Origin: an uncultured Nitrospira sp.
GTDB taxonomy: Bacteria > Nitrospirota > Nitrospiria > Nitrospirales > Nitrospiraceae
Direction of reading: 5' to 3'
Assembly: GCA_902500775.1 (NCBI GenBank)
Contig: CABVRZ010000012.1
Span: 1 to 64,000 of the forward strand
Length of the DNA: 64,000 nucleotides
Made by a program: the position numbers and the translations under genes. Of this stretch, positions 1-42,354 are shown piece by piece; position 1 is the stretch's first letter; each line of letters begins with the position of its first letter. The notes below the pieces were generated by a model that had not been told where the DNA came from, did no database searches, and saw only the letters and a list, made by a program, of their open reading frames with translations.

Positions 1-67
1 GAGGTTACTCCATCACGTCGTCGCTGAAATTATGCACTGGCTACTTGAATCCGCGTCTCCAAAAAAC

Positions 68-805
68 TCACAAACCTAATCGTTTAAAAACACTTGTCGG
101 CAAATGAATAATAACCAGCATGATTATCCGCCAGAACCACGGGGTGTAGATCGTGTCACACCTCCTGTCGACCGCGCGAAGAATGTCAGACGCGACCTTA
201 TCCGCAGTAGCCACGAGAACCTTGGGCAACAGCAGGCCCTGCGTCATTGGGGTGTCAACAAATCCTGGCTTGATAGTCAGGACGTGTACCCCCACTTTGA
301 ATAGTCTCGCCCGTAAACCGCTGCAGAATGCGCTTACAGCACTCTTGGCTGAACCATATAGATAATTTGACGGCCGCCCGCGGTCGCCAGCCACTGATGA
401 AATAACTGCGATGGTGCCCTGGCCTTGGGCCTGCATACGACGAGCTACCTCTGTCAACAAGGCAATGACGTTGAGGCCATTGTTGGTGAACTCTCGCACT
501 GCCAGTCCAGCATCTTCCGCGCACATCTTCTGGTCAGGCAGGCTTCCATGTGCGATCAGCACAATATCCACCTGCCCTAACGTCGCGTAACATACATCCA
601 GCATGGCGGAATGTTGTTCGAACTGGTTCAGGTCAAGGACATGGCGATTTACTCTCGCCCCCCTTACTGCAAGGTCGTCGGAGACTTGACTGAGTTTTTC
701 AGCACTTCGGGCTACTAAGAACAGGTGCGCACCCTGCTCCGCCCACAGTCTGGCGCACGCTGTTGCAATAGCAGATGTGGCACCTATGATCAGGATGTTT
801 TTCAT
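68..805 (-). CDS. SDR reductase, DprE2-like
   Basis: Short-chain dehydrogenase of 245 residues. It carries an N-terminal nucleotide-binding GATSAIA motif (residues 8-14), tandem Ser at 136-137 and the catalytic Y150-GSA-K154. Its partner upstream is a DprE1-like flavoprotein, so the likely reaction is NADH-dependent reduction of the 2-keto intermediate of polyprenyl-phosphoribose to polyprenyl-phospho-D-arabinofuranose (DprE2 role). The C-terminus is hydrophobic (about 225-240), which fits a membrane-bound lipid substrate. I chose the ATG at 805, which overlaps the TAA of the upstream gene by one base (TAATG); a TTG at 826 would add seven residues. Translational coupling supports one functional unit with the next two genes. 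The SDR fold is certain; the substrate is inferred from context. Confidence 0.85.
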   Translation of the reverse strand: MKNILIIGATSAIATACARLWAEQGAHLFLVARSAEKLSQVSDDLAVRGARVNRHVLDLNQFEQHSAMLDVCYATLGQVDIVLIAHGSLPDQKMCAEDAGLAVREFTNNGLNVIALLTEVARRMQAQGQGTIAVISSVAGDRGRPSNYLYGSAKSAVSAFCSGLRARLFKVGVHVLTIKPGFVDTPMTQGLLLPKVLVATADKVASDILRAVDRRCDTIYTPWFWRIIMLVIIHLPTSVFKRLGL

Positions 806-2124
806 TACGCTGTGACTCTTTGCCAAAAATGCGACGTCAATGCTGGATCACGCAGGACTTCCAATCGCTCCCAGGCTGGATAGGCAGTACGGAAGTCCAC
901 CCCGAGCATATGCGCATCTTTCGCCGGATATAATCGCCCCGCTACCGTGCGCACGATGGCATCTAGCTTTTCAAAAAGCTTCGCCGTAGTCTCGCCCTGC
1001 TCAGGAAAATCGAGTGCCAGCGTTACCCCTGGCAACGGGAAGGAAAGCAAGCCCGGTGATTCTTTATGGCCAAACCGCTTTAGCACAGCCAGGAATGAAC
1101 CCTGATGCTCCCTGGAAATCACCGTAAGCAACTCAGCTATTGCCCTCGCAGAATCGTTCTCCGGAATGGCGCACTGATACTGTTGAAATCCATGCGGGCC
1201 ATAGATACGATTCCAGTTGAGAATACGATCAAGCGGGTAGAAAAAGGGCTCATAACTGATACAGCTCCTGTTCCGCCCTGGCTTGTGTGCACGGTAATAC
1301 AGGGTATTGAATAACCGAAGGGAACCCCGGTTGATGAGTGACAATGGCGGAGTGACTGGCAGACTCCATCCGTGCTCATTGTAATACTCCAATCTTCCGT
1401 TGCCCGCATGGTCACCCACGATATACACCCCGCGACCGACCGAGTCCGCCTTGGCTAAACAGTCGATCCATGCGACTGCGTATTCATGCGCAGGGTCTAA
1501 CTCTGCTGACAGTGCGAAAAACTCATCGAGCGAGTTAAAGCGAATATGAATCGTCTCGATCAGACTTGAACGAATAGGCATTAATTGCAATTCAACCCAC
1601 TCAAGGATACCGGTAAGCCCAAGACCACCAATGGTCGCAGTATAGAGTTCAGCGTTCTGCTCCGGCGAGCAGATCAGCGCTGGAGTATCACTGCGCGCGA
1701 GACCAAATCGTCGAACATGGCCGCCAAACGTACCTCGCATGTGGTGATTCTTGCCATGCACATCATTGGCAACAGCTCCTCCCAGTGTGACATATTTTGT
1801 TCCTGGGGTTACCGGTAAAAACCACCCATTGGGAATCGCAACCCGAAGGACTTCATCCAGACTGACACCTGCTTCAGCGGTGATGACGCCAGTTGTCCAA
1901 TCGGCCTGGATGAATCGATCCAGCGAGCGCATGTACAGAACATGGTTCGACGCAGACAAACAGCTGTCACCATAACTTCGCCCATTGCCAAAAGGGAGCG
2001 TACAGCCGTGAGCTTTGGTCACCTGGATGAGCCTGGCGTGCAGATCACCCCGCCACGTGTTGCCATGAGGCGTTTGTGCGTAGCGAGGGTAGCGTCCCCA
2101 AGACGTAAGCAGGGCCGAAGTCAT
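805..2124 (-). CDS. FAD-linked oxidase, DprE1-like decaprenyl-phosphoribose 2'-epimerase subunit
   Basis: A 439-residue FAD-binding oxidoreductase of the vanillyl-alcohol-oxidase fold. The FAD segment PFGNGRSYGDS lies at residues 44-54, a PGTKYVTLGGA loop at 107-117 and GKNHH at 124-128, all typical of DprE1. K402 in LYPAKD aligns with the catalytic Lys418 of the mycobacterial enzyme. The position of mycobacterial Cys387, the benzothiazinone target, appears to be A370 (VTLALDFP). Expected role: oxidation of the ribosyl C2 hydroxyl of polyprenyl-phosphoribose, with DprE2 completing the epimerisation. The ATG at 2124 overlaps the stop of the upstream UbiA gene (ATGA). Confidence 0.88.
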   Translation of the reverse strand: MTSALLTSWGRYPRYAQTPHGNTWRGDLHARLIQVTKAHGCTLPFGNGRSYGDSCLSASNHVLYMRSLDRFIQADWTTGVITAEAGVSLDEVLRVAIPNGWFLPVTPGTKYVTLGGAVANDVHGKNHHMRGTFGGHVRRFGLARSDTPALICSPEQNAELYTATIGGLGLTGILEWVELQLMPIRSSLIETIHIRFNSLDEFFALSAELDPAHEYAVAWIDCLAKADSVGRGVYIVGDHAGNGRLEYYNEHGWSLPVTPPLSLINRGSLRLFNTLYYRAHKPGRNRSCISYEPFFYPLDRILNWNRIYGPHGFQQYQCAIPENDSARAIAELLTVISREHQGSFLAVLKRFGHKESPGLLSFPLPGVTLALDFPEQGETTAKLFEKLDAIVRTVAGRLYPAKDAHMLGVDFRTAYPAWERLEVLRDPALTSHFWQRVTA

Positions 2125-3548
2125 GTTGCAGCCCAGAAAATCGCACCAAACAGCATCCCCACCAGCAGGCTAACGCGATCCTTGATCGCAAACACCACGG
2201 GGTCGTCGTGCATGTGGCCTCGATGGGTAAGCAACCAAATACGGCTTACCCAAAAAAGGAGCAGCGGACATGCCAACCAAATCACTTGCGGGTGATGATA
2301 AAGCACAACAGTGTTTGGGTCCTGAATATAAAGCGCCAATACCATGATTGAGAGGTAACCAGCAGACCCGCCAAGCGAAGAAATCATTTCAAGGTCATCC
2401 GGGTAATAACCACGGCCGCCAGTTTTTTCCGTTTCACCCTTGTTTCTGGCCTCCTTAAGCTCAGCATACCTTTTAACCAGAGCCAGACTCAGGAATATGA
2501 ACATGGAGAAGGCCAGCATCCAGAACGTGAGCACCCCGCCAAACACGAACGTACCGGCAACGACCCTCAACGTATACAGCAGCGCTAAGACAACGACATC
2601 CACCATTATGAGGCGTTTAAGCCAAATAGAATAAACCAAGGTGAGCACGTAATAGACCGCCAGCGACGCCGTAAACTCCCAGGGAAGCAACCACAATGCC
2701 CCCACAAAGGCGGACAAGAATAAGACCGGAATCGCGAGTAACCCGGACTTGATTGACACATGCCCAGACGCAAAGGGTCGGTGGCGCTTACTTGGATGAC
2801 GGCGGTCATCTGGCAGGTCCAGCACGTCATTCAGCAAATACACGCTGGAGGCACACAACCCAAAGAAGAGGAAGGCCGCTAGCCCATTGAGTAGCAATTC
2901 TGGCCGGCCAACTTGATGGCTAGCCAACAGTGGCACAAAGATCAGTAGATTTTTGATCCACTGATGAAACCGCATCCCTTTAATCCATAGTCTCACTCTT
3001 TCGCGGGGCGCATCAAAAACACCCTCAACATTCCCCAACGCTTTGGCCTTCACTACAACCCCCGGCGCGGGATTAACCACATACGCCCTCCTGGCAGCAG
3101 CCCACACGACGAGATCATCATGAGAGTTACCAACGTAGTCGAAACCTTTTTCACCAAACTGTTCGATCAAACGATCTCGCTTGTTCCTACCTGAAAGATT
3201 CGTCTCCTTATTCGTCGCGATAACCCGATCAAAAATACCGAGATGTGTAGCGATCTGTTCTGCATAGAGTCGATGAGTGGCGGTTGCCAAAACAATTTCC
3301 CGACCTTTACGACGCTCCTCTTCTATAAATTCAACTAGCTGTGCATTATACGGCAAGGTGGTTACATCAACTTCAACCTTGAGAGCAAGCTGTTCTTTCA
3401 ATTGAGCCTTTCCACATGAGACCAGCCAGCCCAGCAGAGAGAACACCTTGAATGGTTCGGCTCGCGCAAAGGCAACACCCGACTCTATGAGCAGATCAGA
3501 ATTGAGCAAGGTGCCGTCAAGGTCAATAACCAGAGGACAGAGACTCAA
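2121..3548 (-). CDS. HAD phosphatase - UbiA prenyltransferase fusion (polyprenyl-phosphate phosphoribosyltransferase-like)
   Basis: A 475-residue fusion. Residues 1-180 are a HAD domain: DLDGT with D9 and D11, a motif-II Thr near 91, and GNSHDD at 140-145. Residues ~190-475 are a UbiA-type integral membrane prenyltransferase with about eight hydrophobic segments and the Asp-rich NDVLDLPDD at 240-248. UbiA enzymes of this kind (Rv3806c type) transfer phosphoribose from PRPP to polyprenyl phosphate. The fused phosphatase could then remove the 5-phosphate, giving the DprE1 substrate. That coupling is inferred. The start is TTG at 3548 with GGAGAAG upstream. It overlaps dprE1-like by 4 bp. Confidence 0.85.
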   Translation of the reverse strand: MSLCPLVIDLDGTLLNSDLLIESGVAFARAEPFKVFSLLGWLVSCGKAQLKEQLALKVEVDVTTLPYNAQLVEFIEEERRKGREIVLATATHRLYAEQIATHLGIFDRVIATNKETNLSGRNKRDRLIEQFGEKGFDYVGNSHDDLVVWAAARRAYVVNPAPGVVVKAKALGNVEGVFDAPRERVRLWIKGMRFHQWIKNLLIFVPLLASHQVGRPELLLNGLAAFLFFGLCASSVYLLNDVLDLPDDRRHPSKRHRPFASGHVSIKSGLLAIPVLFLSAFVGALWLLPWEFTASLAVYYVLTLVYSIWLKRLIMVDVVVLALLYTLRVVAGTFVFGGVLTFWMLAFSMFIFLSLALVKRYAELKEARNKGETEKTGGRGYYPDDLEMISSLGGSAGYLSIMVLALYIQDPNTVVLYHHPQVIWLACPLLLFWVSRIWLLTHRGHMHDDPVVFAIKDRVSLLVGMLFGAIFWAAT

Positions 3549-3612
3549 AACAACTTCTCCACTGTTATCGCAGTTCGCTCGGCAAGAAAATCATTCACAT
3601 CACTCCGCGCCA

Positions 3613-5262
3613 TCATTCCCGTCCATTGCTTGGAAGCAGAATCTGGCAATCACTCACCCGCTCTACACGCCAACCCGATTCTCGTGTAACACGTGCATCG
3701 ACATCAGCCTCATTGGGAAAACCGCCACTCGACGGACAAACCACAATCGCCCCTAGCGAGAGTGACCCCAAATAAGCCCCTGGGTGCTCCCAGGTATTTC
3801 TATACTCAAGAAACCACACAGGCGATGTCATGGTCCTCCGTTGTGACAGAAACGCGACCTCACTGCTCCAGTCCTGGCCAAAAATAACGAGCCCACTGTC
3901 AGCCGGAGTGTGTTCACGCAGATAACTTGCAATCGCATGAGCCTTAACTGAGCGTGGATCAGATTCGTGCAATGAACGCGCCATCCCAGTTCCATAGATC
4001 GCATTGAACTCGGTAATATTCGCCAACATAACCATCATCGTCACTGCAGGCACGAGCAGCGTCTTCCCTGAAATATTCACAAGCCATCCACCAATCACGA
4101 TCGATACCGCTGCACTCAGAAATGCGACGCAGGCGACCTGGTAATAGTCATGAATAAAATGCAAATTTGTGAAAATCCCAATAGGCAATAAAAACAAGGC
4201 TACGGCGGCAAAGGATAGCCATGCGAAGCGGCGATGCCGCCCCCCAACTATCCAAGGCAAAATCAATACCATCGAATTTATGATTCCACCGACATTCCGT
4301 CCCATCAATCGTTCCCAAACCACTAATCGCCACGTGTTGAAGTCCAACCGTTGCCCCAGCGTACCGAAATTCCACTGAACGAGCGCGTGGGAAGTAAGCC
4401 CTGCTCCAAGCGGATTCTCCATCTTGACCGTATCGGTATAATGAGCCCACACAGCTCCGATAGCTAACGGAATGCTCATGGTCGCAATTGGAAGCGCCAG
4501 CTGTTGCAAAGCTTGACAGCCAACCCCCTTTTCGCGGACAGTAATAGCAACGGCTGCTAGCAGAAGGAACAGCAACACCGGCCCGCATGTTGTTGCCTTT
4601 TGCAAAATGCCCAAAGAGGCAAAACCAACAAAGAGAGCTGGGCTTTGCCATCCACCGTCTCGCCTGATTAAATCCATTGCATAGGGTATGCAGGCTAAGG
4701 TGAAAAACACCGCCGTTGTCTCGATCATAAAAGTCCGTCCCCAAAACACACTTAGCGGGGAAGTCCACATCACTGCACAAAATACCCAAGGCACACTATC
4801 AGGCAACGTTAACCGCCGACTGATCGCAAAAACCGGCCACGCACAACCTACGAGAAACGCAAAACTGACCACACGCCCCACAGCCACAAGGTCCAAGCTG
4901 GTGACGGCAGACACTGCCGCAACTATCATTTGGTAGATTGGGAATTCAAAAGGAATGGACCAAGGGAAACCAGCGACAGGAGTCTGATACGCAAGCATCC
5001 ATCCTTCTTTCAAGATCCAATACGCTGTCAAAGCGGTTTGGGCTTGTCGAAAAGCATGGGGCTCTACGATAGGTTGCTGGATGTACCGGAATGTTATGAA
5101 GGCGGAGAAAACAAGCGCCGCAATTGCCAAGGAACGGAGTGAAGCGGTCCATACCATTGGACTACCAATTTTCTGGATATAATCGTTCTTTATAAATGCC
5201 GTGAAGATAGAACCCAAAGTGATTCTAGCTTCTATTTCCCTAAGATAGCTGCCTTGCCTCAT
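3613..5262 (-). CDS. GT-C fold integral membrane glycosyltransferase (family 39/PMT-like)
   Basis: A 549-residue polytopic protein with roughly ten or more hydrophobic segments and a C-terminal soluble part from about 430. After the first membrane helix comes EPHAFRQ (67-73), matching the acidic first-loop signature of GT-C enzymes that use polyprenyl-phosphate sugars (ArnT/PMT group). Its place directly upstream of the arabinofuranosyl-donor genes makes it a candidate periplasmic arabinofuranosyltransferase. The acceptor cannot be read from sequence. The ATG at 5262 is used; M36 is an alternative start. Family assignment is firm, sugar specificity is inferred. Confidence 0.75.
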   Translation of the reverse strand: MRQGSYLREIEARITLGSIFTAFIKNDYIQKIGSPMVWTASLRSLAIAALVFSAFITFRYIQQPIVEPHAFRQAQTALTAYWILKEGWMLAYQTPVAGFPWSIPFEFPIYQMIVAAVSAVTSLDLVAVGRVVSFAFLVGCAWPVFAISRRLTLPDSVPWVFCAVMWTSPLSVFWGRTFMIETTAVFFTLACIPYAMDLIRRDGGWQSPALFVGFASLGILQKATTCGPVLLFLLLAAVAITVREKGVGCQALQQLALPIATMSIPLAIGAVWAHYTDTVKMENPLGAGLTSHALVQWNFGTLGQRLDFNTWRLVVWERLMGRNVGGIINSMVLILPWIVGGRHRRFAWLSFAAVALFLLPIGIFTNLHFIHDYYQVACVAFLSAAVSIVIGGWLVNISGKTLLVPAVTMMVMLANITEFNAIYGTGMARSLHESDPRSVKAHAIASYLREHTPADSGLVIFGQDWSSEVAFLSQRRTMTSPVWFLEYRNTWEHPGAYLGSLSLGAIVVCPSSGGFPNEADVDARVTRESGWRVERVSDCQILLPSNGRE

Positions 5263-5273
5263 GACATCGCACT

Positions 5274-5819
5274 CTAACGCACTAGAATCCTACGATCATT
5301 GTCACAAACAAAGGCAGCATCCACGAATTTCATTATTAGGCTCAAGACATAATCACCAGCTGGAAGATCATTCAAGTTTACATTTGCCTCAAATCCTGAT
5401 GCAACCAAGGCTTCCGGGGCGCCGAAATAATCTCTAACATCGCTCCTGGCTAACCCGGTGCGGGAAAGGGCAAAATAGTTTGTATCGTCTTTTCCTGCAA
5501 ATCGCATTATGACGGAGTCTGGCAACCTTCTTTGTTCTAGATCCAACGCCCAGCCCACTAACAGCACAGTCGACTTTTTACTTAAGCTATACGCCGCAGC
5601 CGTGAGAGGCGTCCCGTTGATATACTCAATGTTGCATTTCCCACCGGGACTCCATTGATCACCCGACACCCCAAACGGCGTGGGATCTTCAACAGCCTTG
5701 GTGACTTCCAATTTGGGCTTCGACTGTGAATCAGAGGGGGTTACTTTGACCGGGCTATCTGCAAACCACGCAGCCAACACGAGGGCTAACGCGACCCAAT
5801 ACACTTGCCTAATATTCAA
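5274..5819 (-). CDS. Membrane-anchored hypothetical protein
   Basis: A 181-residue protein with one N-terminal hydrophobic segment (about residues 6-20), acting as signal or anchor, then a polar domain predicted to be exported. The domain contains a GWALD motif and a later stretch rich in beta-type sequence ending near L-P-A-G-D-Y, a pattern seen in small sandwich domains that accompany envelope glycosyltransferases. Two Cys lie in the exported part. I do not recognise a named family. The start is unsure: TTG at 5819 overlaps the upstream acyltransferase stop by 11 bp; GTG at 5804 is the alternative. It lies 11 bp before the GT-C gene, so the two may work together. Confidence 0.6.
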
Positions 5820-6921
5820 TAGCCAACCGCTTTCCGCATTTCATTCCAGGCAACTCAATCATTCGGAATGAAATAGTGGCCGCAAGACCAACGCACGCAA
5901 TAGTCACCGCAGTACATGCAAGGAAGTTCCCTAAACCTCCACCGAGGTGCTGTCCAATTTTTGAGTAAACATCGAGCAACAAAATGATGATTAGCGGATG
6001 GAGCAAATAGAAACTGAAGCTAACCCGCCCTATTCCCGTCGTGATACGATTAACAAATACTTTGGTTGGCCAAAAGCACATGGCAAGAATAAGTCCCATG
6101 AACATCATGCTCCAAATATAGAGATCCAATCGAACTCCTTTCGCAGAAACCAGCAGAGCATAAACAGATGGTTCATATACAACCGCCACAATTGCAGCAA
6201 ATGTTGTCACAAATAGTGCGAGACCTAACCTGACGTTTTGGGCAAACCCAGTTTGCCTCCAGATAAGATACGCCAATACTCCAGACAGAAAGGTTGGCAG
6301 ATGGGTAATAATGTTCAAATACGCATAGGAACCGACATTCATAGCGCTCGCAGCGGAAAAGAATGAAGATGACACCAGAATTGCGAGTGTCACTGCGAGT
6401 ATCCCTGCACGCACACTGTTTACGAGGGCTGCAATGACCGGGAACAGCAAATAAAAGAGCATCTCAACCCCAATCGACCAGCCAGCCCACACGATACTTT
6501 CATGCTTCCCCGGAACCAGCCCGAAAAGCAGAGAGACATTAATGACCACATCATGAAAGGATACTGGGACGCTGCCCCACTTCAGCCTGGATACGACGAG
6601 CCAGACCGCGATCATTGTGTAGAACAATGGTGCGATACGGAAATATCGTCTGATATAGAAGCGCATCATCTGCGACCGATCATTCAATTTATCGAGATAC
6701 CCGTAACCGAGCACAAATCCACTCAGAGCATAAAACAATGGCACACCATTACCAAAATGTAGCTTGATGACATTCAGATAGTCGGGAAGATGCATGTTCG
6801 GCAACATTACCATATGGTAAATGACTATCATGAATGCCGCCAGCGCGCGCAAAGCCTCGACGCTCTCTAAGCGCACCCCATCCCTCCGGGGCTTGTCGGC
6901 AGCCTCATTTGATTCCTGCAT
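5809..6921 (-). CDS. Acyltransferase family 3 membrane protein (O-antigen acetylase-like)
   Basis: About 370 residues with ten or so hydrophobic segments. The N-terminus has [14 protein letters not shown] with the conserved His of the Acyl_transf_3 family, and RRYFRIAP follows after the next loop. Such proteins move acetyl or other acyl groups across the membrane onto O-antigen sugars. The ATG at 6921 is preferred; an in-frame GTG at 6933 lies inside the target duplication of the adjacent MITE, so it only became an option after that insertion. The MITE has moved this gene away from its former upstream neighbour at 7129. The target sugar is unknown. Confidence 0.85.
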
Positions 6922-6924
6922 TAT

Positions 6925-6933
6925 TCTTTGCAC
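6925..6933. repeat. Target-site duplication, left copy
   Basis: TCTTTGCAC, nine bases, repeated exactly at 7107-7115. The two copies flank the inverted-repeat element at 6934-7106. Confidence 0.85.
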
Positions 6934-8091: not shown

Positions 8092-11000
8092 TCATGTTTT
8101 TAGCGGTTTGACCAAGCCCGATGAATGCTTTCCAAGCATCTCAGTTGCTGTGGAGGAAAACCCAAGACCAAATTGTCTAGAGAGGTGCTCGATATATTTT
8201 CTTGCTGCATCCACCTTTTCCTGAGGAACCTCAAACTCCTGGGCGACAAGTGCTTGCACTCGTTGAATCTCGTCAAGCTGGGTCTTATTACGATTTCCTA
8301 TAGTCACCCCGAGAGAGTGCCGCCGGTGTTGGTTTAGAGGCGCAGGCGAGAATGCGATTTTCCCCCTTTTCAACATCAATATGTAGACCAGCCAGTCACC
8401 CGCTACCCGATACGCGCGGATGAGGTCAATATTGTCGTCCAAGATAGAATTCAGGCGGCTCCTCTCAAATACAACGCCACTCACATTGGGTATGGTGTTT
8501 TTTATACTGAGCGCTTCAGCCACCTCCTCTCTCCCCCCGTTTATGAAAGGAGTAAGCCAGCGCTTTGCATCAATATCTGCAACATAGGGTAGATAATTGT
8601 TTGCCAGTACTTGTCCGTCTTCATCTATCTGTTTGCTTTCACAATAACTCAGAACAACCTCCGGATCCTCAAATCCATTCACAACTTCAGTCAAGAAGGC
8701 AGGACTACAGCTGTCATCAGCCTCTGCTATCCAAACATGAGTACCGCGGGCTTGTTCAACACCCCTTTTCCATTGACTAAAGACAGATCCCGAGTTCTCT
8801 TTATTTACAATTACCTTATAGTCTATGGATTGCGCTTCAAGAATATCTCTCGCAACTTTCACACTATGGTCATTTGAACAGTCATCGAGGAAAATGATCT
8901 CAAACACCGGGTAACGCTGAGCAGTAATGCTTGAAATCCGCTCCTGAAGGTAGTGTGCGTAATTAAAGCTAGGAACCACAACCGAGACACGCTTCATCTC
9001 TATCCCGACCAGATCAAGCAAATCATAAACATAGTGCCGGAATGAAAAGCGCTCATTGATAACTTTGGCACCATGCAGCCCCAACATTTCACGTTCATGT
9101 GATGTTGTGAGAATATGGCTGATCGCGTCGGCAAAGGCCGCCGCATCTTCTTTCGCAACCAATTGACCGCACCCCTCCTTCAATAGCCCGATAAAGCCGC
9201 CCGCCCCTTCAAACCCTACGACAGGCACCTCGGCATCGAGCGCTTCAAGGACCACAGATGGAAATGGATCTTCTCGCGAAGTGAGCGCGAAGACATCCGC
9301 ACCGCCATAGAAAAGGTCCGTATCCGACTGTAACCCGGGGAAAATGAACCGATCCTTCTTCTCAGGGAACTCGGACAGCTTTTCGCCAACCTCACGACTC
9401 ATTGTCTCTTCCCAATGGCCAATCCATACCCAGCGGGCGTGGGGTACGCGTTGCGCCATCTTCAGCCCGGCTTCGACAAACAAATCAATTCCCTTGCGAC
9501 GGTCCGCGTAGCCAACGCCCAGCACAATCTGGGTATCCTGTGGAAGCCCTAGTTTTTGGCGCAGATTTTTGCGATCAGCCGCACGATCCGATAATTTGCT
9601 TCTCCGCTTATAGAGTCCTTGCGGACGGATCACAAACTTCGATACGTCCGCGGATGCAACTTCCTTAAAAGACGTTGCGACTTCTTCAGCTGCAAATACA
9701 ATTCGTGTTGCGTGCGTGGCAATGGATTTTGCGTGCCCATGTAAGCTAAGCTGATCTAGAACACCTCGCAACTCGTGGATCAGTGCAATACATTTAATCC
9801 CATTGGTTGCTAGTGTTTCGAGGAAATAGCCGGAGGCGGTCGTATTGACCAAGGCTGCGCGATGCCCCTCTTCATAAAGCCTCCTGGCAAGTGCGATTGC
9901 CTCTGGCCCACGCACATCTACCCTGGCCAGATCATGCACGGTTGCCCATTTGGCATATTCCGTTTTCAGGGGACCGTCTCCCAAGCAAATCATGTCGACA
10001 TGGAACCCAAACCCGTGTCTCAGTGTCTTTGCCAGATTGAAGGAGAGAAGCTGCGCGCCATGAGGGTAGGCGTCGTGAGCAACCAAGACGATTTTTCTGC
10101 CTTCTTCATTCAGACCATCTTTATCGCCGCTCAACGCGTTCCTCGTAGCCTGTAAGTAGGCATAGCCGTAACGAGCGTCCGGCTCCAAATAAGCTCCTTC
10201 GGCCCATTCGTTCCAGGCGTTCACGAAGATCAATCGTTCATCCTGCGTGGCAAATCGTTTCTCGGTGTCCTGAATGGCGTTTTTCAGCCAACGCTTATAA
10301 AGCGACGGTGTGCTGTGTAGAAACACGGTGCTTCGGTTTTTTCGTCGCGCAGTGTTGTCCCAAGCTGGGCATACACCGCGAAAGAGCCTATATTGAGGGT
10401 GCTGATATTTCTCACTTCGCGCGGCAAGCACGCGCCAATCGTACGCTACACCGCGAAACCTCCTCTCAGGAGAGGTGACAGTATTAGTAATATTGGGCAG
10501 TACGGAATTGTTCGGGGGAAACTCAATGGCGGCATCAAACCCATATTGGCTGGGATCTAGGGTCTCGAAAGACTGAGTATAGGCTAGATAAATTTCCCCC
10601 ACACCATTGTCCCTACACCAGCCGCGCCAACGCTGAGCCGTTTCTTTTGCCGATGCCAGAAGGCTAGGGCGATACACAAGAAGGAGCGGTTTCCCACCGA
10701 TCCGGATATAGCGAGTATCGCACATATAGCGTGAAACGTACCGAATGAAAGCCACATCATCTTCAGGTGAGTGTTGCTGCGCAATGAGGATTTCGCTATC
10801 TAGGCCGTCCCACCGGCGGCTCCAATTCTCGTTTGCCCAACACAAGCAGAAGGGAAGATCCAGTCTCCTGTCATTCAGGTAATTTTCTATTGGCTTTTCC
10901 AGTAAACGCTTTCCGCCAAACCAATAAAAATAGAAGCAGAACCCCCCAATGCCATAAAGTTTTGCGAGTTCCACTTGCCGACGTTGCACAGCAGGGTTGA

Positions 11001-13038
11001 GCAAGTTGTAATAACCAAGTTCGCCGTGCACACGCGGTTGATAGTGTCCAGCAAACTGAGGCATTGCGGGCTGCACGTTTGTCCACTCCGTGAACCCCTC
11101 GCCCCACCAGGCATCATTCTCTGGAATGGGATGATACTGCGGAAGATAGAAACAGATGACTCTTGCCGGTTTGCTCTTCAGCGGCGTTGCTTGTAGGAGT
11201 GGTATATATGTGGCATTAGTGAAAAATGACTGTTCCAATTTAGACAGGTCAGTCCCTGAGCTGTCGTCATACGCTCCATTCCAAATTTTCCAGGTTTGAT
11301 ATGCATTAGACCAGCTAAACAAGAATGGAAGGCGGCTGAAGAGATAGCTTTTGAGCTTTTGCTTTCTGTAGACGGATAATGGAAGACTGCGCCATACGAT
11401 TCGCGATTGATCTGAAATGTTACGGCGAACTATGTTGGGTAAGCCCGCGCTAAAACTCCCACGAAAATCTCTTAACGGCTTGGTCCAGCGCCAGGATTTA
11501 CTGCTTAGAATCTGAGCGATCTGTTCCTCCCGTTCCGCCAGCGCCTGATTCAAACTCGCAATCTGCCCCTCCCGTTCCGCCAGCGCCTGATTCAAACTCG
11601 CAATCTGCCCCTCCCGTTCCGCCAGCGCCTGATTCAAACTCGCAATCTGCCCCTCCCGTGGAGCTGCAACTTCTTCTGCTATATACCTCTCTTGATCTAG
11701 ATATCTCTGCAACAAATTCGGTGTATATGCTCCAAGTGGTAACGGTGTCAGATCGACGGCCCCAGAAAGCGCCTTGTTGAGGTGATTGATGGAGTAGTAC
11801 TGTTCGTAGTGCCTCCTGGCGAGGAGTGCCTGTTGTGCCAGCTTGTCCGGAGTTAGCCTTTGTAAAAACTCATAGAGTTCCGACACAGTTTTCCATTTGA
11901 ATGCCTCAGGGTAGACTAAATCACTGCCACCATGAAACCTGGACAAATAGCTCTCATGCACTACCATAGGAGTAGCTGATCCCATCACCTCAACACCAGC
12001 TAGTCCGCCGCCCAAGGGGAATGAGCTTATATAGAGATCAACTCGTTGTTCGATGATCGTATGCCATAGACTCTGAACCCAAGGGATCAATACAAAGCGC
12101 TCTTTTGCAATCCCACGCTTTTCAAGCCCATCATGAATCACCTGCATAGCTCTTGAAGACAACGCTCCAACATGGATGTGCACACCTCCAGTCACTTTAA
12201 GGAGATTCGGCACTTCTTCAGGGTAGCTATATCGATAGTGTCGCTCGAATTTTCCACTATTGCCGGAACTACATGTTCTTAACATCCCCTCGCTGAGGAA
12301 TAAGAGACTTGATGGGCGAGGTCCGCTGTCTTTAAATGCCAGAGGCCAATAGATATTGTGGTCAATGCCTAGTTTGTTGCGGCAGTTGAAAAAGCCAAGA
12401 TTGTGTGGATCAACATGAACCACCGATGTCAAAAAGACACCAAGACATAACTGATGGTCGGCATGATGGTAGAAAATAACTTCTGAGTTTAGCTTCGGCT
12501 GAGTGACGGCAATTGCCACGGCGTCCTGGTGATGATTGAATAAGAACGTTCTTGATGGACCTAAAGATACAAGCCTTCCCCTTAGCCATTTCAGTTTATC
12601 CAATAGTGTTGTTTTTGGAGCACATTCTATAGAAACTCTTAAACCTGCAAATCTCTCACAAATAGACTGGTAATCAGCGCGTCTGAATATATCCGTTAAT
12701 AGAATCTTATGATTTCTTTCGGGCTGGGCGCCAATGATCTGCTCAATAACAGCGGTGTGCCCCCCCTCACGGTACAACTCTGTAGCGACGAAGACATCAA
12801 GATTCCTATCGACGCGCCCTTCCCCCTCCTGAACTTTCTGCTCGCTTCTCCACACTTCCAATCCAATGCGTTCACACAGGTTATCAAGGCACTTAGAACC
12901 AAATACGTTTGCAAGGGACAACTCACTTCTCAACACGTCTGTCACAAAATCACAGATCAAGTTTAATGCAACATCAAAGTCTTGTTCTTGTATTCGTTGC
13001 AAGACTTCGCTCTCGAGATCTGAAACAAACTTGTACAT
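8092..13038 (-). CDS. Giant multi-domain glycan enzyme (GT-B-like, coiled coil, WbsX/GH99-like, GT4, GT2)
   Basis: A 1648-residue protein, one of the longest in the locus. Reading from the N-terminus: residues ~85-445 resemble a GT-B glycosyltransferase half (HHADH near 191, GGGLAGVEVMGSATP later); ~450-510 is a coiled coil with three identical 14-residue repeats; ~625-965 is a WbsX-type domain (YLPQYHP, WWGEGFTEW, and NAWNEWAEG near its end); ~985-1345 is a GT4 domain (GVGYADRRKG; a C-terminal glycosyltransferase E-x7-E-like segment); ~1347-1575 is a GT2 domain (VVVPSFNYAHYL, EADDS). The chain probably builds several linkages of the O-repeat at the cytoplasmic membrane face. The ATG at 13038 with GGAAG upstream is preferred; a TTG at 13074 would overlap the previous stop by 4 bp and add 12 residues. 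Confidence 0.85.
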   Translation of the reverse strand: MYKFVSDLESEVLQRIQEQDFDVALNLICDFVTDVLRSELSLANVFGSKCLDNLCERIGLEVWRSEQKVQEGEGRVDRNLDVFVATELYREGGHTAVIEQIIGAQPERNHKILLTDIFRRADYQSICERFAGLRVSIECAPKTTLLDKLKWLRGRLVSLGPSRTFLFNHHQDAVAIAVTQPKLNSEVIFYHHADHQLCLGVFLTSVVHVDPHNLGFFNCRNKLGIDHNIYWPLAFKDSGPRPSSLLFLSEGMLRTCSSGNSGKFERHYRYSYPEEVPNLLKVTGGVHIHVGALSSRAMQVIHDGLEKRGIAKERFVLIPWVQSLWHTIIEQRVDLYISSFPLGGGLAGVEVMGSATPMVVHESYLSRFHGGSDLVYPEAFKWKTVSELYEFLQRLTPDKLAQQALLARRHYEQYYSINHLNKALSGAVDLTPLPLGAYTPNLLQRYLDQERYIAEEVAAPREGQIASLNQALAEREGQIASLNQALAEREGQIASLNQALAEREEQIAQILSSKSWRWTKPLRDFRGSFSAGLPNIVRRNISDQSRIVWRSLPLSVYRKQKLKSYLFSRLPFLFSWSNAYQTWKIWNGAYDDSSGTDLSKLEQSFFTNATYIPLLQATPLKSKPARVICFYLPQYHPIPENDAWWGEGFTEWTNVQPAMPQFAGHYQPRVHGELGYYNLLNPAVQRRQVELAKLYGIGGFCFYFYWFGGKRLLEKPIENYLNDRRLDLPFCLCWANENWSRRWDGLDSEILIAQQHSPEDDVAFIRYVSRYMCDTRYIRIGGKPLLLVYRPSLLASAKETAQRWRGWCRDNGVGEIYLAYTQSFETLDPSQYGFDAAIEFPPNNSVLPNITNTVTSPERRFRGVAYDWRVLAARSEKYQHPQYRLFRGVCPAWDNTARRKNRSTVFLHSTPSLYKRWLKNAIQDTEKRFATQDERLIFVNAWNEWAEGAYLEPDARYGYAYLQATRNALSGDKDGLNEEGRKIVLVAHDAYPHGAQLLSFNLAKTLRHGFGFHVDMICLGDGPLKTEYAKWATVHDLARVDVRGPEAIALARRLYEEGHRAALVNTTASGYFLETLATNGIKCIALIHELRGVLDQLSLHGHAKSIATHATRIVFAAEEVATSFKEVASADVSKFVIRPQGLYKRRSKLSDRAADRKNLRQKLGLPQDTQIVLGVGYADRRKGIDLFVEAGLKMAQRVPHARWVWIGHWEETMSREVGEKLSEFPEKKDRFIFPGLQSDTDLFYGGADVFALTSREDPFPSVVLEALDAEVPVVGFEGAGGFIGLLKEGCGQLVAKEDAAAFADAISHILTTSHEREMLGLHGAKVINERFSFRHYVYDLLDLVGIEMKRVSVVVPSFNYAHYLQERISSITAQRYPVFEIIFLDDCSNDHSVKVARDILEAQSIDYKVIVNKENSGSVFSQWKRGVEQARGTHVWIAEADDSCSPAFLTEVVNGFEDPEVVLSYCESKQIDEDGQVLANNYLPYVADIDAKRWLTPFINGGREEVAEALSIKNTIPNVSGVVFERSRLNSILDDNIDLIRAYRVAGDWLVYILMLKRGKIAFSPAPLNQHRRHSLGVTIGNRNKTQLDEIQRVQALVAQEFEVPQEKVDAARKYIEHLSRQFGLGFSSTATEMLGKHSSGLVKPLKT
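11531..11656 (-). repeat. Three perfect 42-bp tandem repeats coding a coiled coil
   Basis: Units start at 11531, 11573 and 11615, each 42 bp and identical in DNA, encoding the 14-residue unit EREGQIASLNQALA three times. A degenerate fourth unit follows on the coding strand (EEQIAQI). The period is two heptads, so changing the copy number keeps both reading frame and coiled-coil register. Exact DNA identity suggests recent slippage or homogenisation. Confidence 0.95.
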
Positions 13039-13070
13039 CTTAAGTTCTTCCGCGAGTACGGACCGATTAA

Positions 13071-14180
13071 TCAAACATATTCGGTGGCATCCCTTAAAGC
13101 TCTAACAACCCAATTAACCTGGCTCTCACTCAGGTGTGGCCCCATCGGCAAACTTACTACTTCCCGAGCAAGTCTCTCAGTAATTGCCAGATGGCCATAA
13201 GATTGATTGTGAGCAACATATGCCTGTGATAAGTGGGGTGGGACTGGGTAGTGGATCAACGTTTCGACACCCGCCCGAAACAACGCTTCCATTAACTTCT
13301 CTCGCTTAGCATGGCGTACAACGTACAAATGCCAGACCGGCTCCGAAACACTATCGGCCAGAGATATCTCCAGAAGTCTTTCCATCGAGAGAGACTTATA
13401 GTATTGATTAGCAATTCTTCTTCTGCGCGAATTCCATTCATCAAGTTTTGAAAGCTTGACTCTGAGCAGCGCAGCTTGGAGTTCATCCAACCTTGAATTG
13501 AACCCTATGCGCTCATTGATGTATTTCTCGCGTGAGCCGTAATTTCTCAATAACCGTATCCTATCGGCTAGCGTGGTGTCATTAGTTGTGACCGCGCCAC
13601 CATCCCCTACAGCTCCCAGATTCTTAGTGGGATAAAAACTAAACGCGGCTGCATCGCCAAGCGAGCCTACTCGGCGCCCCTTGTATCGTGCTCCATGAGC
13701 CTGGGCAGCATCCTCGATAAGTAAGAGATGATGCTTGCGAGCTACTTGCGCAAGCGCATCCATATCGGCAGGTCTGCCATATAAATGGACAGCAAGAATG
13801 GCCTTAGTGTTCGGCGCAACGGCAGCTTCGACGCAGCATGGATCAATATTGTAACTTAGTTCATCAGGCTCTACTGGTATGATCTCAGCACCGACATGCG
13901 TAACCGCAAGCCAAGTTGCTATATAGGTATTCGCGGGAACAATAACGCTGTCCCCCGGACCAATCCCATAGGCTCGAAGTGTCAGAGCGATAGCATCGAG
14001 ACCATTCCCAACACCGATACAATGCTTGACACTGCAATAGGCGGAAAATTCTGCTTCAAAAGATTCCAGTTCCGGCCCAAGAATATAGCAACCTGAATCC
14101 AGAACTCTCCGATATGCTTCCACCATCTCGTCTTTGAGTTCTTGGTGGGCAGCCGTTAGGTCTACAAATGGAACTCTCAC
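13071..14180 (-). CDS. DegT/DnrJ/EryC1/StrS aminotransferase, FdtB/QdtB-like
   Basis: A 369-residue PLP-dependent sugar aminotransferase. It has [14 protein letters not shown] at the N-terminus, GNGLDAI in the PLP-phosphate region, the EDAAQAHGA segment, and [15 protein letters not shown] carrying the PLP lysine. With the FdtA/QdtA-like isomerase just upstream, it probably aminates C3 of a dTDP-3-keto-6-deoxyhexose to give dTDP-Fuc3N or dTDP-Qui3N. The GTG start at 14180 overlaps the isomerase stop (GTGA). The usual FdtC/QdtC acetyltransferase is not next to it. Fuc versus Qui configuration cannot be told. Confidence 0.9.
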
Positions 14181-18178: not shown

Positions 18179-19669
18179 TCATGTGCCTATCCTTGCAGAC
18201 TGTCCTTCGTCCGCGACAGAAAGCACGTCAAACTGGACGGGAGTCTTGACGAACGCAGGGAACAAATGAAGTGCATCGGCTGGCCAAACGCTCCTGAAAA
18301 CCAGGGCGTTCTCCACTACTTCCAGGAATATGTGTTGCTTGTTCCTCACCACAGGCAATTCGATAGCGGCAACTAGCGTGTAGCCGTCGGCACGCAAAGC
18401 ATTCTTCCCTCTGATACTGAATATGAGCGTGTCCCCTGCTTTTGCCGGCTGAGGTGCTACTGCTGGGTCAGACGTCGACATCGTGCCAACCAGCATTTGC
18501 CCCTTCAGATCACGCATTGAATACCCCCAGGCAACTTGAGGGAGATCTGCGTTGACGCGTACGGCGATTTGGACCTGAAAGGGCTCATCCACTTCCAGTT
18601 GATCTGTGGGACTTCCCTTCCTACCCAAAAGCTTCACATCGAGAATGGTAACACGCCCATCCCCATAACGATTTGCTAGAGGGCCAAAGTCTACTGGCGC
18701 ATCAGTCTTCACAACAACATCAGATTTGTTAGGTTGTTTCTCTGTGCACGATGACTGACCATCATCTGCAATAGAAAGGTTTTCACCTACGGCAGGATTT
18801 TCAGAATTAAGGGCAGCATTGATTTCCATGTGACTCCGTAAAACATATAAGCCTGTCACATCCGCCACCTTACCATAGCTAATAGACCGTCCTGCCTCAA
18901 GATACAGACATCTATTACACAAGGCTTTTACAGCGCTCACATCATGGCTTACGAATATGACCGTTGTCCCAACCTCCATCAGCCTACGAATGCGGCCCAT
19001 ACATTTTGCCTGAAATGCGATGTCGCCAACCGCCAGTGCCTCATCGACTATTAAAATATCAGGGAATGTACTGACAGCCGCGGCAAACGCCAGCCGAACA
19101 TACATCCCACTCGAATACATTTTCACTGGCTGTTCAATAAATTCTCCGATATCGGCAAACGCTGCAATGGCATCGAAGCGAGCGTTGAGTTCTTGCCTAC
19201 TCAACCCCAGCAACGCGCCATTCATGTAGACATTTTCCCGACCAGTAAATTCAGGGTTGAAACCTGCGCCAAGTTCTAAGAGCGCAGCAACGCGGCCGTT
19301 GGTTTCTACCGTACCGTATGTTGGAGCTAATATCCCGCAGATAAGCTGCAGAAGCGTCGATTTGCCTGATCCGTTGCGCCCGATAATCCCGACCGTTTCA
19401 CCCTTTTTCACCTCGAAGGACACATCCCGCAGGGCCCAGAATTCTCTGGCGTAGGTCTTGGGTTCCATGCCCATCAATCGCTGCAGGCGTGGATAGATCG
19501 CGTGCTTCAACCGATCTTCTGGTCGGTCGTAGAGCTGGTAACACTTGCTTAAGTTCTGAACGCGAATGGCCATATCACCAGCTGTTCGTTGGATCTGGAC
19601 TCCTCCATCCCCGGTATCCATTTCATGCGAGGAAATTGAGGATTCTTTCATGAGACTCTCAGAGGACAT
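18179..19669 (-). CDS. wzt: O-antigen ABC exporter ATPase Wzt with carbohydrate-binding C-terminus
   Basis: A 496-residue protein. The N-terminal ABC domain has Walker A GRNGSGKST, signature YSSGMYVRLAF, Walker B ILIVDEALAVGD and the SHD switch. After a linker (~270-325) comes a Wzt-type C-terminal beta-sandwich (~335-485). In E. coli O9a-type systems this domain recognises the end group of the finished O-chain and licenses export. It pairs with the permease gene directly upstream, overlapping it by 11 bp; the ATG at 19669 (MSSESL) was chosen over the longer ORF start at 19720. The C-domain makes export of a capped or terminally modified chain likely. Confidence 0.93.
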   Translation of the reverse strand: MSSESLMKESSISSHEMDTGDGGVQIQRTAGDMAIRVQNLSKCYQLYDRPEDRLKHAIYPRLQRLMGMEPKTYAREFWALRDVSFEVKKGETVGIIGRNGSGKSTLLQLICGILAPTYGTVETNGRVAALLELGAGFNPEFTGRENVYMNGALLGLSRQELNARFDAIAAFADIGEFIEQPVKMYSSGMYVRLAFAAAVSTFPDILIVDEALAVGDIAFQAKCMGRIRRLMEVGTTVIFVSHDVSAVKALCNRCLYLEAGRSISYGKVADVTGLYVLRSHMEINAALNSENPAVGENLSIADDGQSSCTEKQPNKSDVVVKTDAPVDFGPLANRYGDGRVTILDVKLLGRKGSPTDQLEVDEPFQVQIAVRVNADLPQVAWGYSMRDLKGQMLVGTMSTSDPAVAPQPAKAGDTLIFSIRGKNALRADGYTLVAAIELPVVRNKQHIFLEVVENALVFRSVWPADALHLFPAFVKTPVQFDVLSVADEGQSARIGT

Positions 19670-20480
19670 CAGCAAACCCTTTTCTAGTCTTCTGAAACCA
19701 CCAGAACCCCGCCCAGGCAATCGTTATACTGGCTATGAAAGAGAGTCCCCAGCCTACCCAATCCAACATTCTTCCCCATATAAGGACGTTCCGTGCTTCC
19801 TCGATGACAAAGGTAAGTGGATTGAGCAACAGCCATCCCTGGTACTCCTTCGGGAGGATGGACACGGGATAGAACACCGGTGATAGAAACAGCAGGACCG
19901 TGGTGATGATCCCCGTGGTCTGAGCAATGTCGCGAACAAACACTCCCGTGGCAGACAGAATCCAGGCAAACCCCATCGTGGCAATCAGTAGCGGTAGGAC
20001 AACCAGCGGAAAAAGGACCGCAGTCCAGGGCAACGAGAAGTTCAACATAAGTTGCGCGATCAGCAGCACCACCAAGCTGATCGTAGCATGAAACAAAGCT
20101 GAGCCCATGGCAACCCACGGCAGAATCTCCAGCGGGAACAGCACCTTCTTGACGTAATTCACGTTGGAGAGAATAAGGCCTGGGGCGCGATTGACACATT
20201 CGGCGAACAAACCGTGCACGATCATGCCCACAAAGAGAATGATGGCGAAACTGGCCTTACTTTCCTCGCCCGCGCCCCCCCAGCGAGCCTTGAACACGAC
20301 GGAAAAGACGAATGTATAGACCACCAGCATGAGCACGGGATTGAAGAAAGACCAGGCGATCCCCATGACTGAACCGCGGTACCGCCCAATGACTTCCCGC
20401 TTGCTCATTTGCACAATAAGGAAACGATTGCGCCAAAGGCTGGCGACAATTTCTTTGGGCGACGTAGAGAAATGTTGCAT
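19659..20480 (-). CDS. wzm: O-antigen ABC exporter permease Wzm
   Basis: A 273-residue ABC-2 type membrane protein with six predicted helices and the N-terminal amphipathic stretch KREVIGRYRGSVMG typical of Wzm/TagG permeases. Together with Wzt it flips undecaprenyl-pyrophosphate-linked O-chain across the inner membrane. The ATG at 20480 shares a base with the rfbC stop (TGATG). The presence of this pair means chain polymerisation is cytoplasmic, in keeping with the giant multi-domain transferase in the same locus. Confidence 0.95.
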   Translation of the reverse strand: MQHFSTSPKEIVASLWRNRFLIVQMSKREVIGRYRGSVMGIAWSFFNPVLMLVVYTFVFSVVFKARWGGAGEESKASFAIILFVGMIVHGLFAECVNRAPGLILSNVNYVKKVLFPLEILPWVAMGSALFHATISLVVLLIAQLMLNFSLPWTAVLFPLVVLPLLIATMGFAWILSATGVFVRDIAQTTGIITTVLLFLSPVFYPVSILPKEYQGWLLLNPLTFVIEEARNVLIWGRMLDWVGWGLSFIASITIAWAGFWWFQKTRKGFADVL

Positions 20481-32569: not shown

Positions 32570-33754
32570 CTATAGGCTTGCCCCGTGCACGAATGTCTTC
32601 CTTGACAGAGAATCCTTAGCAGTTCCCTGAAGCAACTCACGATATAAGGCCAACGTTTGCTCGTTCACAACTGCAGCAGAAAACTCTTTGACCGCGATGT
32701 TCCTCCCGCTGCGACCAAGCTCCTCTCTGAGCCCTTCATTTTTCAGCAGTGTAGTGATCGAGTCGGCTATTGCGCTAGCGTCCTTGGGAGGAACCAACAT
32801 CCCATTAACACCATGGCGCACAACATCTCGGCAACCCGGGACATCCGTGGCGACGATGGCCTTCCCACAGGCCGCTGCCTCCAAAAGCACTTTTGGTAGG
32901 CCTTCCCGATAGGAAGGCAAAACCACAAGCGCCGCCTCGGCATAGACAGCCGACATGTCGTCCCGATGTCCCCACCACTCGACAGCTCCTTCAGCCATCC
33001 ATCGAGCTAATTGTTCCCGCCCTATGTCGGCTGGATTATCTTCATCACAACGACCGACGAGCACAAACCGGGCATCCACTCCTCTTCCCTTGAGCATGCG
33101 TGCCGCCTGCACAAACTCTCCAACACCCTTGTCCCACAGCATCCGGGCCGGTAACACGACCAGCGGAATCCCTGGAGGAGACGGCTTGACCGAGAATGCA
33201 TTGATATCGATCCCTGACCCGGCGATGACACGTGTGTGCGACGTTCGGACGGTACCTGCCTGAACCAACTCATCGCGATCCGCCTCGTTTTGGAACAGAA
33301 CAGTCGAGCCACTCCTTCCAATGGCCGACCGTAACGCTGCTGTCAGGACCCTATGCAGCCCCCCTTGTTGGCGTTCGGAATTCGCAAACAGATACCCAAG
33401 GCCAGCAAATGCATTGAGGATAGCCGGCACCCGGACCACCCAGGCCGCCAGGGATCCGTAGAGGATTGGTTTCATCGCCACATGATGAACCAAATGCGGA
33501 CGAACACGTCCATAGACGCTGATCAATTCCGTGACGGCGCCCAACTCTCGAATGGGGTTCCGACTCCTCCGGAACAGCGAGATCGGGACCAAGTGAAACC
33601 CTTCTCCCTGAATCTGTTTCCCATGATCCGTCACGCGGGTGGCGATCGTCACGTCGAACCCCGCATCTCGCGCAGCACGAGCCAGATCCAGACGGTGAGA
33701 CCAGAAATACCAGTCTTCAGTGATAAGGTACAGCAGTCGCGGGCGACCGGTCAT
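32570..33754 (-). CDS. Glycosyltransferase family 4
   Basis: A 394-residue GT-B enzyme. The N-terminal half starts [22 protein letters not shown]; the C-terminal half has [69 protein letters not shown], the classic E-x7-E donor site. It resembles WbpJ/PglA-type GlcNAc or GalNAc transferases that act early in chain assembly. Its start overlaps the asparagine synthetase gene by 38 bp, and it ends 19 bp before the decayed SDR gene. Confidence 0.92.
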
Positions 33755-41004: not shown

Positions 41005-42354
41005 TCATGCGCGGATGAGACTCACACCATACCCATACTTCATCGTCATACCGATAAAGGTGCTCATGAGTACAAGATACATGAGACCATAGGCTAGAGG
41101 AATCCCATGAATACCCCACTGACCAGGCAACACAGCCAACGCCAAGATGAGCGTCACAACAGCCAAGCCGTAGCCGATTGAGACTTGCAGAATTTTCCCA
41201 CGAGTTTGGAGAATATTTTCAAAGACCGAAGCCACTAGATAGAACAGCGAGCTCGGGAGCAACCATTGAACTAAAGAAAACGAATTCGCCGCAAAGGCCG
41301 GTGAAATCCACCAACTGATCAGATCCTCAGCAAAAATGGTGAGAGGGACGTAGTACAATGTGAATACAACCAGTACGGCCCCCAAAGAAACATGGATAAG
41401 CGAGCCGGTCTTGATGCCACGAACCTCACGACGAAGCAAAACCGTATACAGGCTTCCATTCACCGCCCACACGAGAAAGAAGGCCCTGACATGTAAATCC
41501 GACGCAACTGAATATTCCGCCAGCGCATCCAAGGAGAGAAAACGGCTGATATATATCTTGTCCGCGCTTCCGATCATCATGCCAGAAACGAGCGCTAGCA
41601 TCCCTGGTAGCCCAAAACTGACATTGAAGGCCAACTCTTTTCGCACAAATCTTGGGGTTATCCAACGAAATCCCCCGAACAGCTTTGCTGCTAAGAACAG
41701 ATCTATAACTAATTTGCTGGCCGATCCAGCCACAGTGATAAATACAAGACATTCCAGCCTTCCACCGGCCATCACTGTGATGACCATTGCACCAGATCTA
41801 ACTACGTCCAAGAACATACGTGAGAAATTAACCCACGCCACTCGATTGTGGGCCTGCATGATCGCAATACAGGGCGTACTCAATACAGAGAACGCCATTC
41901 CTACTCCGATCCATTGGAATAACTCCGAGTATTGACGTGTATTGAGGAGCATGGCTGAGATATAGCTTCCTCCGAAAAACATCCCAAATCCAATCAGCAA
42001 GGCAAGGGCACAATAGTAAGGCACCGAACACTGTACCAACGAGTGAGCTCGACGACTTCCACGAGCGATCGCACGGCCAAGACGGAAATTCAACGAGTAG
42101 CCCATTCCAAGATCCAGTACATGAGGATAGGCATATAGCAGAAACAACATCATCACCACGCCGTACGCCTGCTCTCCAACACGATTAAGGAAGTAGGGCA
42201 GCGCCATGGCAAAGAGCGCAAGGGAAATCCCCCTGGACACGAAGAACGATGTGAAATTTAAAACATGCTCTCGCTTGTCGACCACGAGGCTGAGAAGATG
42301 TCTCGACCACTGTTTCATAAGGTGTGGTCTCACGGCGATTTCAGAAAGAGGCAT
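41005..42354 (-). CDS. Polysaccharide flippase-like membrane protein (Wzx/MOP family)
   Basis: A 449-residue protein with about 12 to 14 hydrophobic segments in the MOP/Wzx pattern. VLNFTSFFVSRGISLALFAMALPYFLNRVGEQAYGVVMM forms the first helices, and LDLGMGYSLNFRLGRAIARG follows helix 2, a common Wzx feature. It probably flips a lipid-linked oligosaccharide. The ATG at 42354 has GGAG seven bases upstream, which decides it over the longer ORF and over ATG 42318. Its presence beside an ABC exporter suggests a second glycan or a past cluster exchange. Confidence 0.85.
   Translation of the reverse strand: MPLSEIAVRPHLMKQWSRHLLSLVVDKREHVLNFTSFFVSRGISLALFAMALPYFLNRVGEQAYGVVMMLFLLYAYPHVLDLGMGYSLNFRLGRAIARGSRRAHSLVQCSVPYYCALALLIGFGMFFGGSYISAMLLNTRQYSELFQWIGVGMAFSVLSTPCIAIMQAHNRVAWVNFSRMFLDVVRSGAMVITVMAGGRLECLVFITVAGSASKLVIDLFLAAKLFGGFRWITPRFVRKELAFNVSFGLPGMLALVSGMMIGSADKIYISRFLSLDALAEYSVASDLHVRAFFLVWAVNGSLYTVLLRREVRGIKTGSLIHVSLGAVLVVFTLYYVPLTIFAEDLISWWISPAFAANSFSLVQWLLPSSLFYLVASVFENILQTRGKILQVSIGYGLAVVTLILALAVLPGQWGIHGIPLAYGLMYLVLMSTFIGMTMKYGYGVSLIRA

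Follow-up and report, generated by a model that had tools for sequence, protein, structure and literature searches.

A probable horizontally acquired polyprenyl-phospho-pentofuranose cassette, cut by a contig end, in a Nitrospira lipopolysaccharide locus

Kelly et al. (2024; PMC11127046) showed how three components, a HAD-UbiA enzyme, a GT-C glycosyltransferase of family GT136 and a flippase, add α-pentofuranoses to O-antigens after polymerisation. In these systems an epimerase determines the sugar, and the examples that contain arabinofuranose (Araf) have DprE1/DprE2 homologues (PMC11127046). Their prototype is Citrobacter youngae O1/O2, with the PPPRS enzyme as ORF15, the flippase as ORF14, the GT136 as ORF12 and the epimerase as ORF13, and a related PPPRS has been proposed for pilin arabinosylation in Pseudomonas (PMC11127046). 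Earlier work on noeCHOP had established D-arabinofuranosylation of Nod factors (PMC5080398). Here, we analyze a 64,000-nucleotide stretch from an uncultured Nitrospira sp. (the window), which forms the left end of contig CABVRZ010000012.1 (C12) and opens with genes for a DprE2-like, a DprE1-like and a HAD-UbiA protein, a trio that Pseudomonas, Burkholderia and others commonly carry. Neither the RF00177 model nor the 16S probe site gave a match in the assembly, so that 16S neither confirms nor refutes the Nitrospirota placement. We consider it probable that these genes belong to a horizontally acquired seven-gene cassette for synthesis of a polyprenyl-phospho-pentofuranose donor and periplasmic transfer of its sugar, cut by the contig end.

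Four minus-strand open reading frames (ORFs) lie where a preliminary description of this DNA had placed them, with overlaps of 4 bp (ATGA) between the HAD-UbiA and DprE1 genes and 1 bp (TAATG) between the DprE1 and DprE2 genes, and with the GT-C-like gene upstream of HAD-UbiA across a 64-bp gap; a fifth ORF adjoins them:

68..805, minus strand: DprE2-like reductase of the short-chain dehydrogenase/reductase (SDR) family, 245 aa counted from the ATG (NF005489), proposed to reduce polyprenyl-P-2-keto-pentofuranose to the arabino form
805..2124, minus strand: DprE1-like oxidase dependent on flavin adenine dinucleotide (FAD), 439 aa (PDB match to DprE1), proposed to oxidise C2 of polyprenyl-P-ribofuranose
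2121..3548, minus strand: HAD phosphatase-UbiA fusion, 475 aa (NF006088), predicted polyprenyl-phosphate 5-phosphoribosyltransferase plus 5-phosphatase
3613..5262, minus strand: GT-C-type polytopic glycosyltransferase, 549 aa (similar to proteins of sister cassettes), proposed periplasmic pentofuranosyltransferase
5274..5819, minus strand: membrane-anchored accessory domain with one predicted transmembrane (TM) helix, similar to the C-terminal domain of sister GT-Cs

The HAD-UbiA fusion passes NCBIfam model NF006088 (PRK08238) at 675 bits against a cut-off of 351, and its UbiA half matches the solved structure of the M. tuberculosis phosphoribosyltransferase (PDB 8j8j, E 5e-26). Its motifs are intact, with DLDGT of the HAD domain at residue 9, and NDVLDLPDD and KRYAE of the UbiA domain at residues 240 and 359. 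The best PDB match of the DprE1-like protein is DprE1 itself (E 1e-63), and the equivalents of Y60, H132, K134, Q334, Q336, K367, Tyr415 and K418, catalytic or FAD-site residues of mycobacterial DprE1, are all kept. The DprE2-like protein passes NF005489 (343 bits, cut-off 267) and carries the YGSAK active-site motif. We name the two proteins DprE1-like and DprE2-like because both score under the curated equivalog cut-offs given below. Relative to mycobacterial DprE1, the DprE1-like protein carries the substitutions Cys387 to Ala, Tyr314 to Phe, Asn385 to Thr and Ser228 to Val. Cys387 is the residue bound by benzothiazinones, and with Ala in its place natural insensitivity to covalent benzothiazinones would therefore be expected.

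A scan of named genomes for DprE1-like relatives found 255, from which 80 loci were kept. The order HAD-UbiA, DprE1, DprE2 is preserved in nearly all of these 80, and the arrangement is on that count well beyond chance. Two layouts recur. In the first (P. syringae type), the genes after the trio encode a flippase-like protein (PF03706) and a GT-C distinct from that of the window, with no SDR or FAD enzyme. The second, a class defined in this analysis and called type B, adds to the trio a GT-C that varies among cassettes, an SDR of the epimerase type, an amine-oxidase-like FAD enzyme (NF005560, 575 bits) and GtrA. The SDR, FAD and GtrA genes lie downstream in about 23 of the 80 loci, among them the loci closest to the window (Zoogloea L002/L003 and Gallionellaceae), and a Burkholderia plasmid record is annotated with the type-B gene order.

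The module had been called complete, which does not hold for the window: no flippase candidate of SMR/GtrA size occurs in it, and GtrA, the SDR and the FAD oxidoreductase are found on another contig, C40, probably beyond an insertion sequence (IS) of IS30-like type.

1..55, minus strand: left end (CGCGGATTCAAGTAGCC...) of the IS30-like element at the contig break; the right end of the element closes contig C40

On C40 the SDR and FAD genes stand side by side, the SDR starting about 80 bp from the contig end, with GtrA next and then more glycan genes. This SDR, FAD, GtrA order is that of the Zoogloea, Gallionellaceae and Pseudomonas cassettes. The SDR and FAD enzyme of this genome are 64% and 75% identical to their counterparts in sister cassettes. 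All six type-B genes are present in the genome, and they would be in type-B order if C40 adjoins C12. A direct overlap between the ends of C40 and C12 was looked for and no common sequence was found, which two different ends of one IS would explain. Exactly 55 IS bases stand at three contig ends (C12 start, C40 end and C35 end). The form of the end at window positions 1-55 is also present at C35 and C53 (C53:955), and the right-end form at C40 (41551-41605) and C71 (8581); in C53 the IS end runs on into RRITYEDRCQLYALRTAGKTQ, the start of a transposase that we read as IS30-like. Among the six possible pairings of IS ends, C12-C40 is alone in having a matching 3-bp target duplication (AGA), the pairings C12-C71, C35-C40, C35-C71, C53-C40 and C53-C71 being rejected for want of one. 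C12-C40 is also the pairing predicted from gene order. From these sequences we infer that the element sits between DprE2 and SDR, joining C12 to C40. An apparently complete module at the edge of a window may be a product of the assembly, with half of the cassette beyond an IS-caused contig break. As separate observations, the IS30-like ends represent at least three copies, at which the assembly is broken, and a second transposase, ISL3-like by eye, lies among glycan genes of C40 (L094 8708-10165).

The DprE1-like protein of the window groups with betaproteobacterial proteins (Zoogloea, Gallionellaceae; support 92/82). It is 67% identical to the Zoogloea protein versus 42-52% to those of other families of the order, which branch elsewhere, and 58 further congeneric genomes gave no match at E 1e-60. 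Homologues of the window GT-C were located in four sister cassettes only (L002, L035, L046 and L113), and none in 98 relative genomes, a result that led us to reject a native origin of the GT-C within the genus. Horizontal acquisition of the cassette would be the simplest account of these sequences. Plasmid-borne relatives came to 103 records, all below 60% identity, and a phage-borne version was set aside on a single weak match; mobility of the cassette appears plausible, with no near copy on plasmid or phage.

The GT-C-like protein gave no sequence match in Pfam, NCBIfam or PDB. It is 34-37% identical to the GT-Cs of L002, L035 and L046, and the alignment has E67, F71, R72 and Q73 invariant, with E67 as candidate catalytic acid. 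In the proposed structural comparison, the best fold matches are all GT-C enzymes, AftA first, from a poor model (pLDDT 50, best Foldseek E 0.01), and at these values we do not claim the fold as proof of arabinosyltransferase specificity. The accessory ORF resembles the C-termini of the GT-Cs in L069, L035, L046 and L113 (profile E 1e-10 from a one-sequence search), most strongly that of L069, with weak pairwise similarity to L035. It looks like a stand-alone, split-off form of the sister C-terminal domain and, by analogy, may be an acceptor-binding module.

The proposed link to lipopolysaccharide (LPS) genes is sound, because lipid A/core and O-antigen genes both lie in the window. The former comprise heptosyltransferases, LpxK, WaaA, MsbA, LpxB and LpxA, alongside BamA; the glycan genes comprise RmlABCD-type enzymes, FdtA, DegT, an O-antigen ligase and several glycosyltransferases. 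Two further features bear on the acceptor:

5809..6933, minus strand: membrane O-acyltransferase (PF01757 Acyl_transf_3, E 3e-32)
18179..20480, minus strand: Wzt with a C-terminal carbohydrate-binding domain (PF00005 + PF14524) and Wzm (PF01061), O-antigen ABC transporter

Wzm/Wzt is the likely export route of the backbone, and the O-acyltransferase, encoded on the strand of the cassette, possibly adds a further decoration to the O-polysaccharide. Elsewhere in the window we observed a 1660-aa fusion of a WbsX domain with GT4-type and GT2-type glycosyltransferases (8092-13074), a glutamine-dependent asparagine synthase-like gene within the glycan locus (33717-35681), a protein of 485 aa that matches no Pfam family, has about 10 predicted TM helices and could be another polymerase, flippase or GT-C (41005-42462), and a fusion of a GT9 heptosyltransferase with a HAD hydrolase domain that may be GmhB-like (48084-49808).

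Gene content, motifs and gene order are direct observations; the steps that follow are drawn from protein families and genomic context. The UbiA half would likely transfer ribose-5-phosphate from phosphoribosyl pyrophosphate (PRPP) onto polyprenyl phosphate and the fused HAD domain strip the 5-phosphate, and the DprE1-like and DprE2-like proteins would likely oxidise and then reduce C2 to give polyprenyl-P-D-arabinofuranose, both steps being modelled on families with tested relatives. By context, the SDR and FAD amine-oxidase-like enzyme encoded on C40 may modify the sugar intermediate further, or its carrier. GtrA would probably flip the lipid-linked sugar, and the GT-C, aided by the accessory domain, would probably add it to the O-polysaccharide exported by Wzm/Wzt.

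The polyprenyl-phospho-D-Araf module of the preliminary description stands as a polyprenyl-phospho-pentofuranose module with ribose-to-arabinose enzymes; with SDR and FAD as two extra enzymes, its end sugar may be something other than plain D-Araf. To evaluate this pair, we sampled 119 Pseudomonas genomes irrespective of DprE1 and defined a close FAD orthologue by E below 1e-200. Ten genomes carried one, and DprE1 was present in 10/10 of these versus 13 of the rest (23 in all; Fisher p ~1e-8, kinship not corrected for). In 9/10, FAD and DprE1 genes are linked in cassettes; in G142 (L112), about 550 kb separate SDR-FAD-GtrA, accompanied by a GT-C, from a DprE1 that is itself more distant in sequence. 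In one further genome an FAD enzyme of 30% identity occurs without DprE1. Among 31 genomes picked for DprE1, the FAD enzyme occurs in 21 and is absent from the searched genomes with the P. syringae layout. A distant FAD relative (30% identity) in L116 (G170) adjoins genes of GT-C-like, PF03706-like, GT2 and CDP-glucose type, which hints that its role in lipid-phosphosugar systems may be wider.

We tentatively suggest, as possible but somewhat doubtful, that SDR and FAD act together as a second redox pair whose substrate is polyprenyl-phospho-arabinofuranose. The product would be a pentofuranose beyond Rib, Xyl and Ara, such as D-lyxofuranose through an added C3 inversion, or an oxidised or deoxy form, in no solved glycan yet. 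It is quite possible, if short of an even chance, that the module stops at D-Araf, that the GT-C adds plain D-Araf to the O-chain or core, and that the SDR and FAD enzyme of C40 serve another step. The trio and GT-C are contiguous, cassettes free of SDR and FAD do exist in the P. syringae layout with its own flippase-like protein and GT-C, and DprE1/DprE2 homologues accompany Araf-containing glycans (PMC11127046). Such an end point sits poorly, however, with the tight SDR-FAD-GtrA order in all nearest cassettes and in this genome, and with a close FAD orthologue found only alongside DprE1 in the Pseudomonas sample.

An acceptor other than LPS for the donor's sugar (pilin, exopolysaccharide, lipid or a secreted glycolipid), the linkage to LPS genes being incidental, is in our view unlikely. 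It would have parallels in the PPPRS proposed for Pseudomonas pilin arabinosylation (PMC11127046), in the action of noeCHOP on Nod factors (PMC5080398) and in the varied surroundings of sister cassettes; but the cassette shares its strand with the O-antigen genes at close spacing, no pilin gene occurs among the scanned window ORFs, and the accessory domain resembles, by arrangement, the GT136 carbohydrate-binding module (CBM) that binds O-polysaccharide. It seems similarly improbable that the isoprenoid carrier, and not the sugar, is the substrate of the SDR/FAD pair, for instance for saturation or isomerisation. The folds nearest to the FAD model (pLDDT 85) are indeed phytoene desaturase and protoporphyrinogen oxidase, both of which act on large hydrophobic substrates, and secondary family matches of the enzyme are HpnE and phytoene desaturase. 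Against this, the SDR belongs to the extended SDRs of epimerase type (PF01370), has an invariant YxxxK and is akin to sugar epimerases, and the modelled FAD fold alone does not settle whether the substrate is sugar or lipid. A UDP-galactopyranose-mutase type was rejected for the FAD enzyme, with no such mutase in the 50 best fold matches. Finally, we doubt that the cassette is decaying in this genome, its SDR-FAD-GtrA half cut off by the IS lying between DprE2 and SDR (if the join is right) and its pentofuranose never at the surface, for although the window offers no other flippase candidate of SMR/GtrA size, no reading frame is broken, promoters can be left or created by IS30-type elements, and substitution by other flippases may occur.

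Several points weigh against the explanation by a seven-gene cassette. The C40-C12 join was inferred, not assembled, and a 3-bp match arises by chance 1 time in 64; the IS30-like insertion could also weaken or silence expression of the distal genes, including the flippase. The DprE1-like protein scores 325 bits against equivalog NF053785 (cut-off 500) and the DprE2-like protein 181 bits against DprE2 equivalog NF053786 (cut-off 250), and the GT-C-like structure model is of low confidence. SDR-FAD-GtrA stands apart from the HAD-UbiA/DprE genes in L112 (G142) and L118 (G109), so the two halves can separate, and type-B cassettes also occur outside LPS loci, one example (Pseudomonas L035) being near gyrA, and the acceptor may therefore differ between them.

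Because a 2024 paper (PMC11127046) already described O-antigens decorated with pentofuranose along these lines, and noeCHOP was published before it (PMC5080398), the suggestion of a new case is mostly pre-empted. The general idea, periplasmic addition of lipid-linked pentofuranose to O-antigens, being published, the interest of the finding now rests on the SDR/FAD pair. What is new is a recurrent, horizontally moving cassette that ties the pentofuranose route to a GtrA flippase and a conserved SDR/FAD pair; should that pair change the sugar, an unrecognised pentofuranose would be present on many proteobacterial surface glycans.

Compared with C. youngae O1/O2, the locus shares the HAD-UbiA fusion with the same motif set (HAD/PRP and UbiA domains, ND..D...D), apparently a GT-C partner (on the window side from topology and the fold matches of a poor model), epimerising enzymes between donor synthesis and transfer, an ABC-transporter O-antigen setting and an accessory domain linked to the GT-C, the last compared with the ORF12 CBM by arrangement only. 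It differs in that DprE1/DprE2 replace the ORF13 epimerase, GtrA (on C40) is of a different family from the EmrE/ArnE-like ORF14 flippase, the accessory domain is a separate ORF, and an extra SDR and FAD enzyme and an IS insertion are present. With the mycobacterial decaprenyl-phospho-D-arabinofuranose pathway (Rv3806c, Rv3807c, DprE1, DprE2, Rv3789 and Emb/Aft) it has in common the UbiA phosphoribosyltransferase, DprE1 plus DprE2 chemistry and GT-C transferases; it departs from that pathway in its fused HAD phosphatase in place of Rv3807c, its sub-cut-off DprE1 and DprE2 scores, Cys387 to Ala and GtrA, and, unlike in mycobacteria, no arabinan polymer machinery is seen. In noeCHOP, noeC/H/O match the polyprenyl-phospho-Araf synthesis steps in a Gram-negative, whereas the acceptor is a Nod factor and the transferase another one (NoeP). 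The type-B cassettes (Zoogloea, Gallionellaceae, Pseudomonas and Burkholderia) have the same gene content, in what would be largely the same order if C40 adjoins C12; the core three proteins are 63-74% identical to those of the nearest, and the window GT-C subfamily is found in four. The window differs from them in a GT-C upstream of HAD-UbiA (as in Zoogloea L002), the split-off accessory domain and the IS30-like insertion. The general route is a published one, and this version carries two extra redox enzymes, probably beyond a mobile element.

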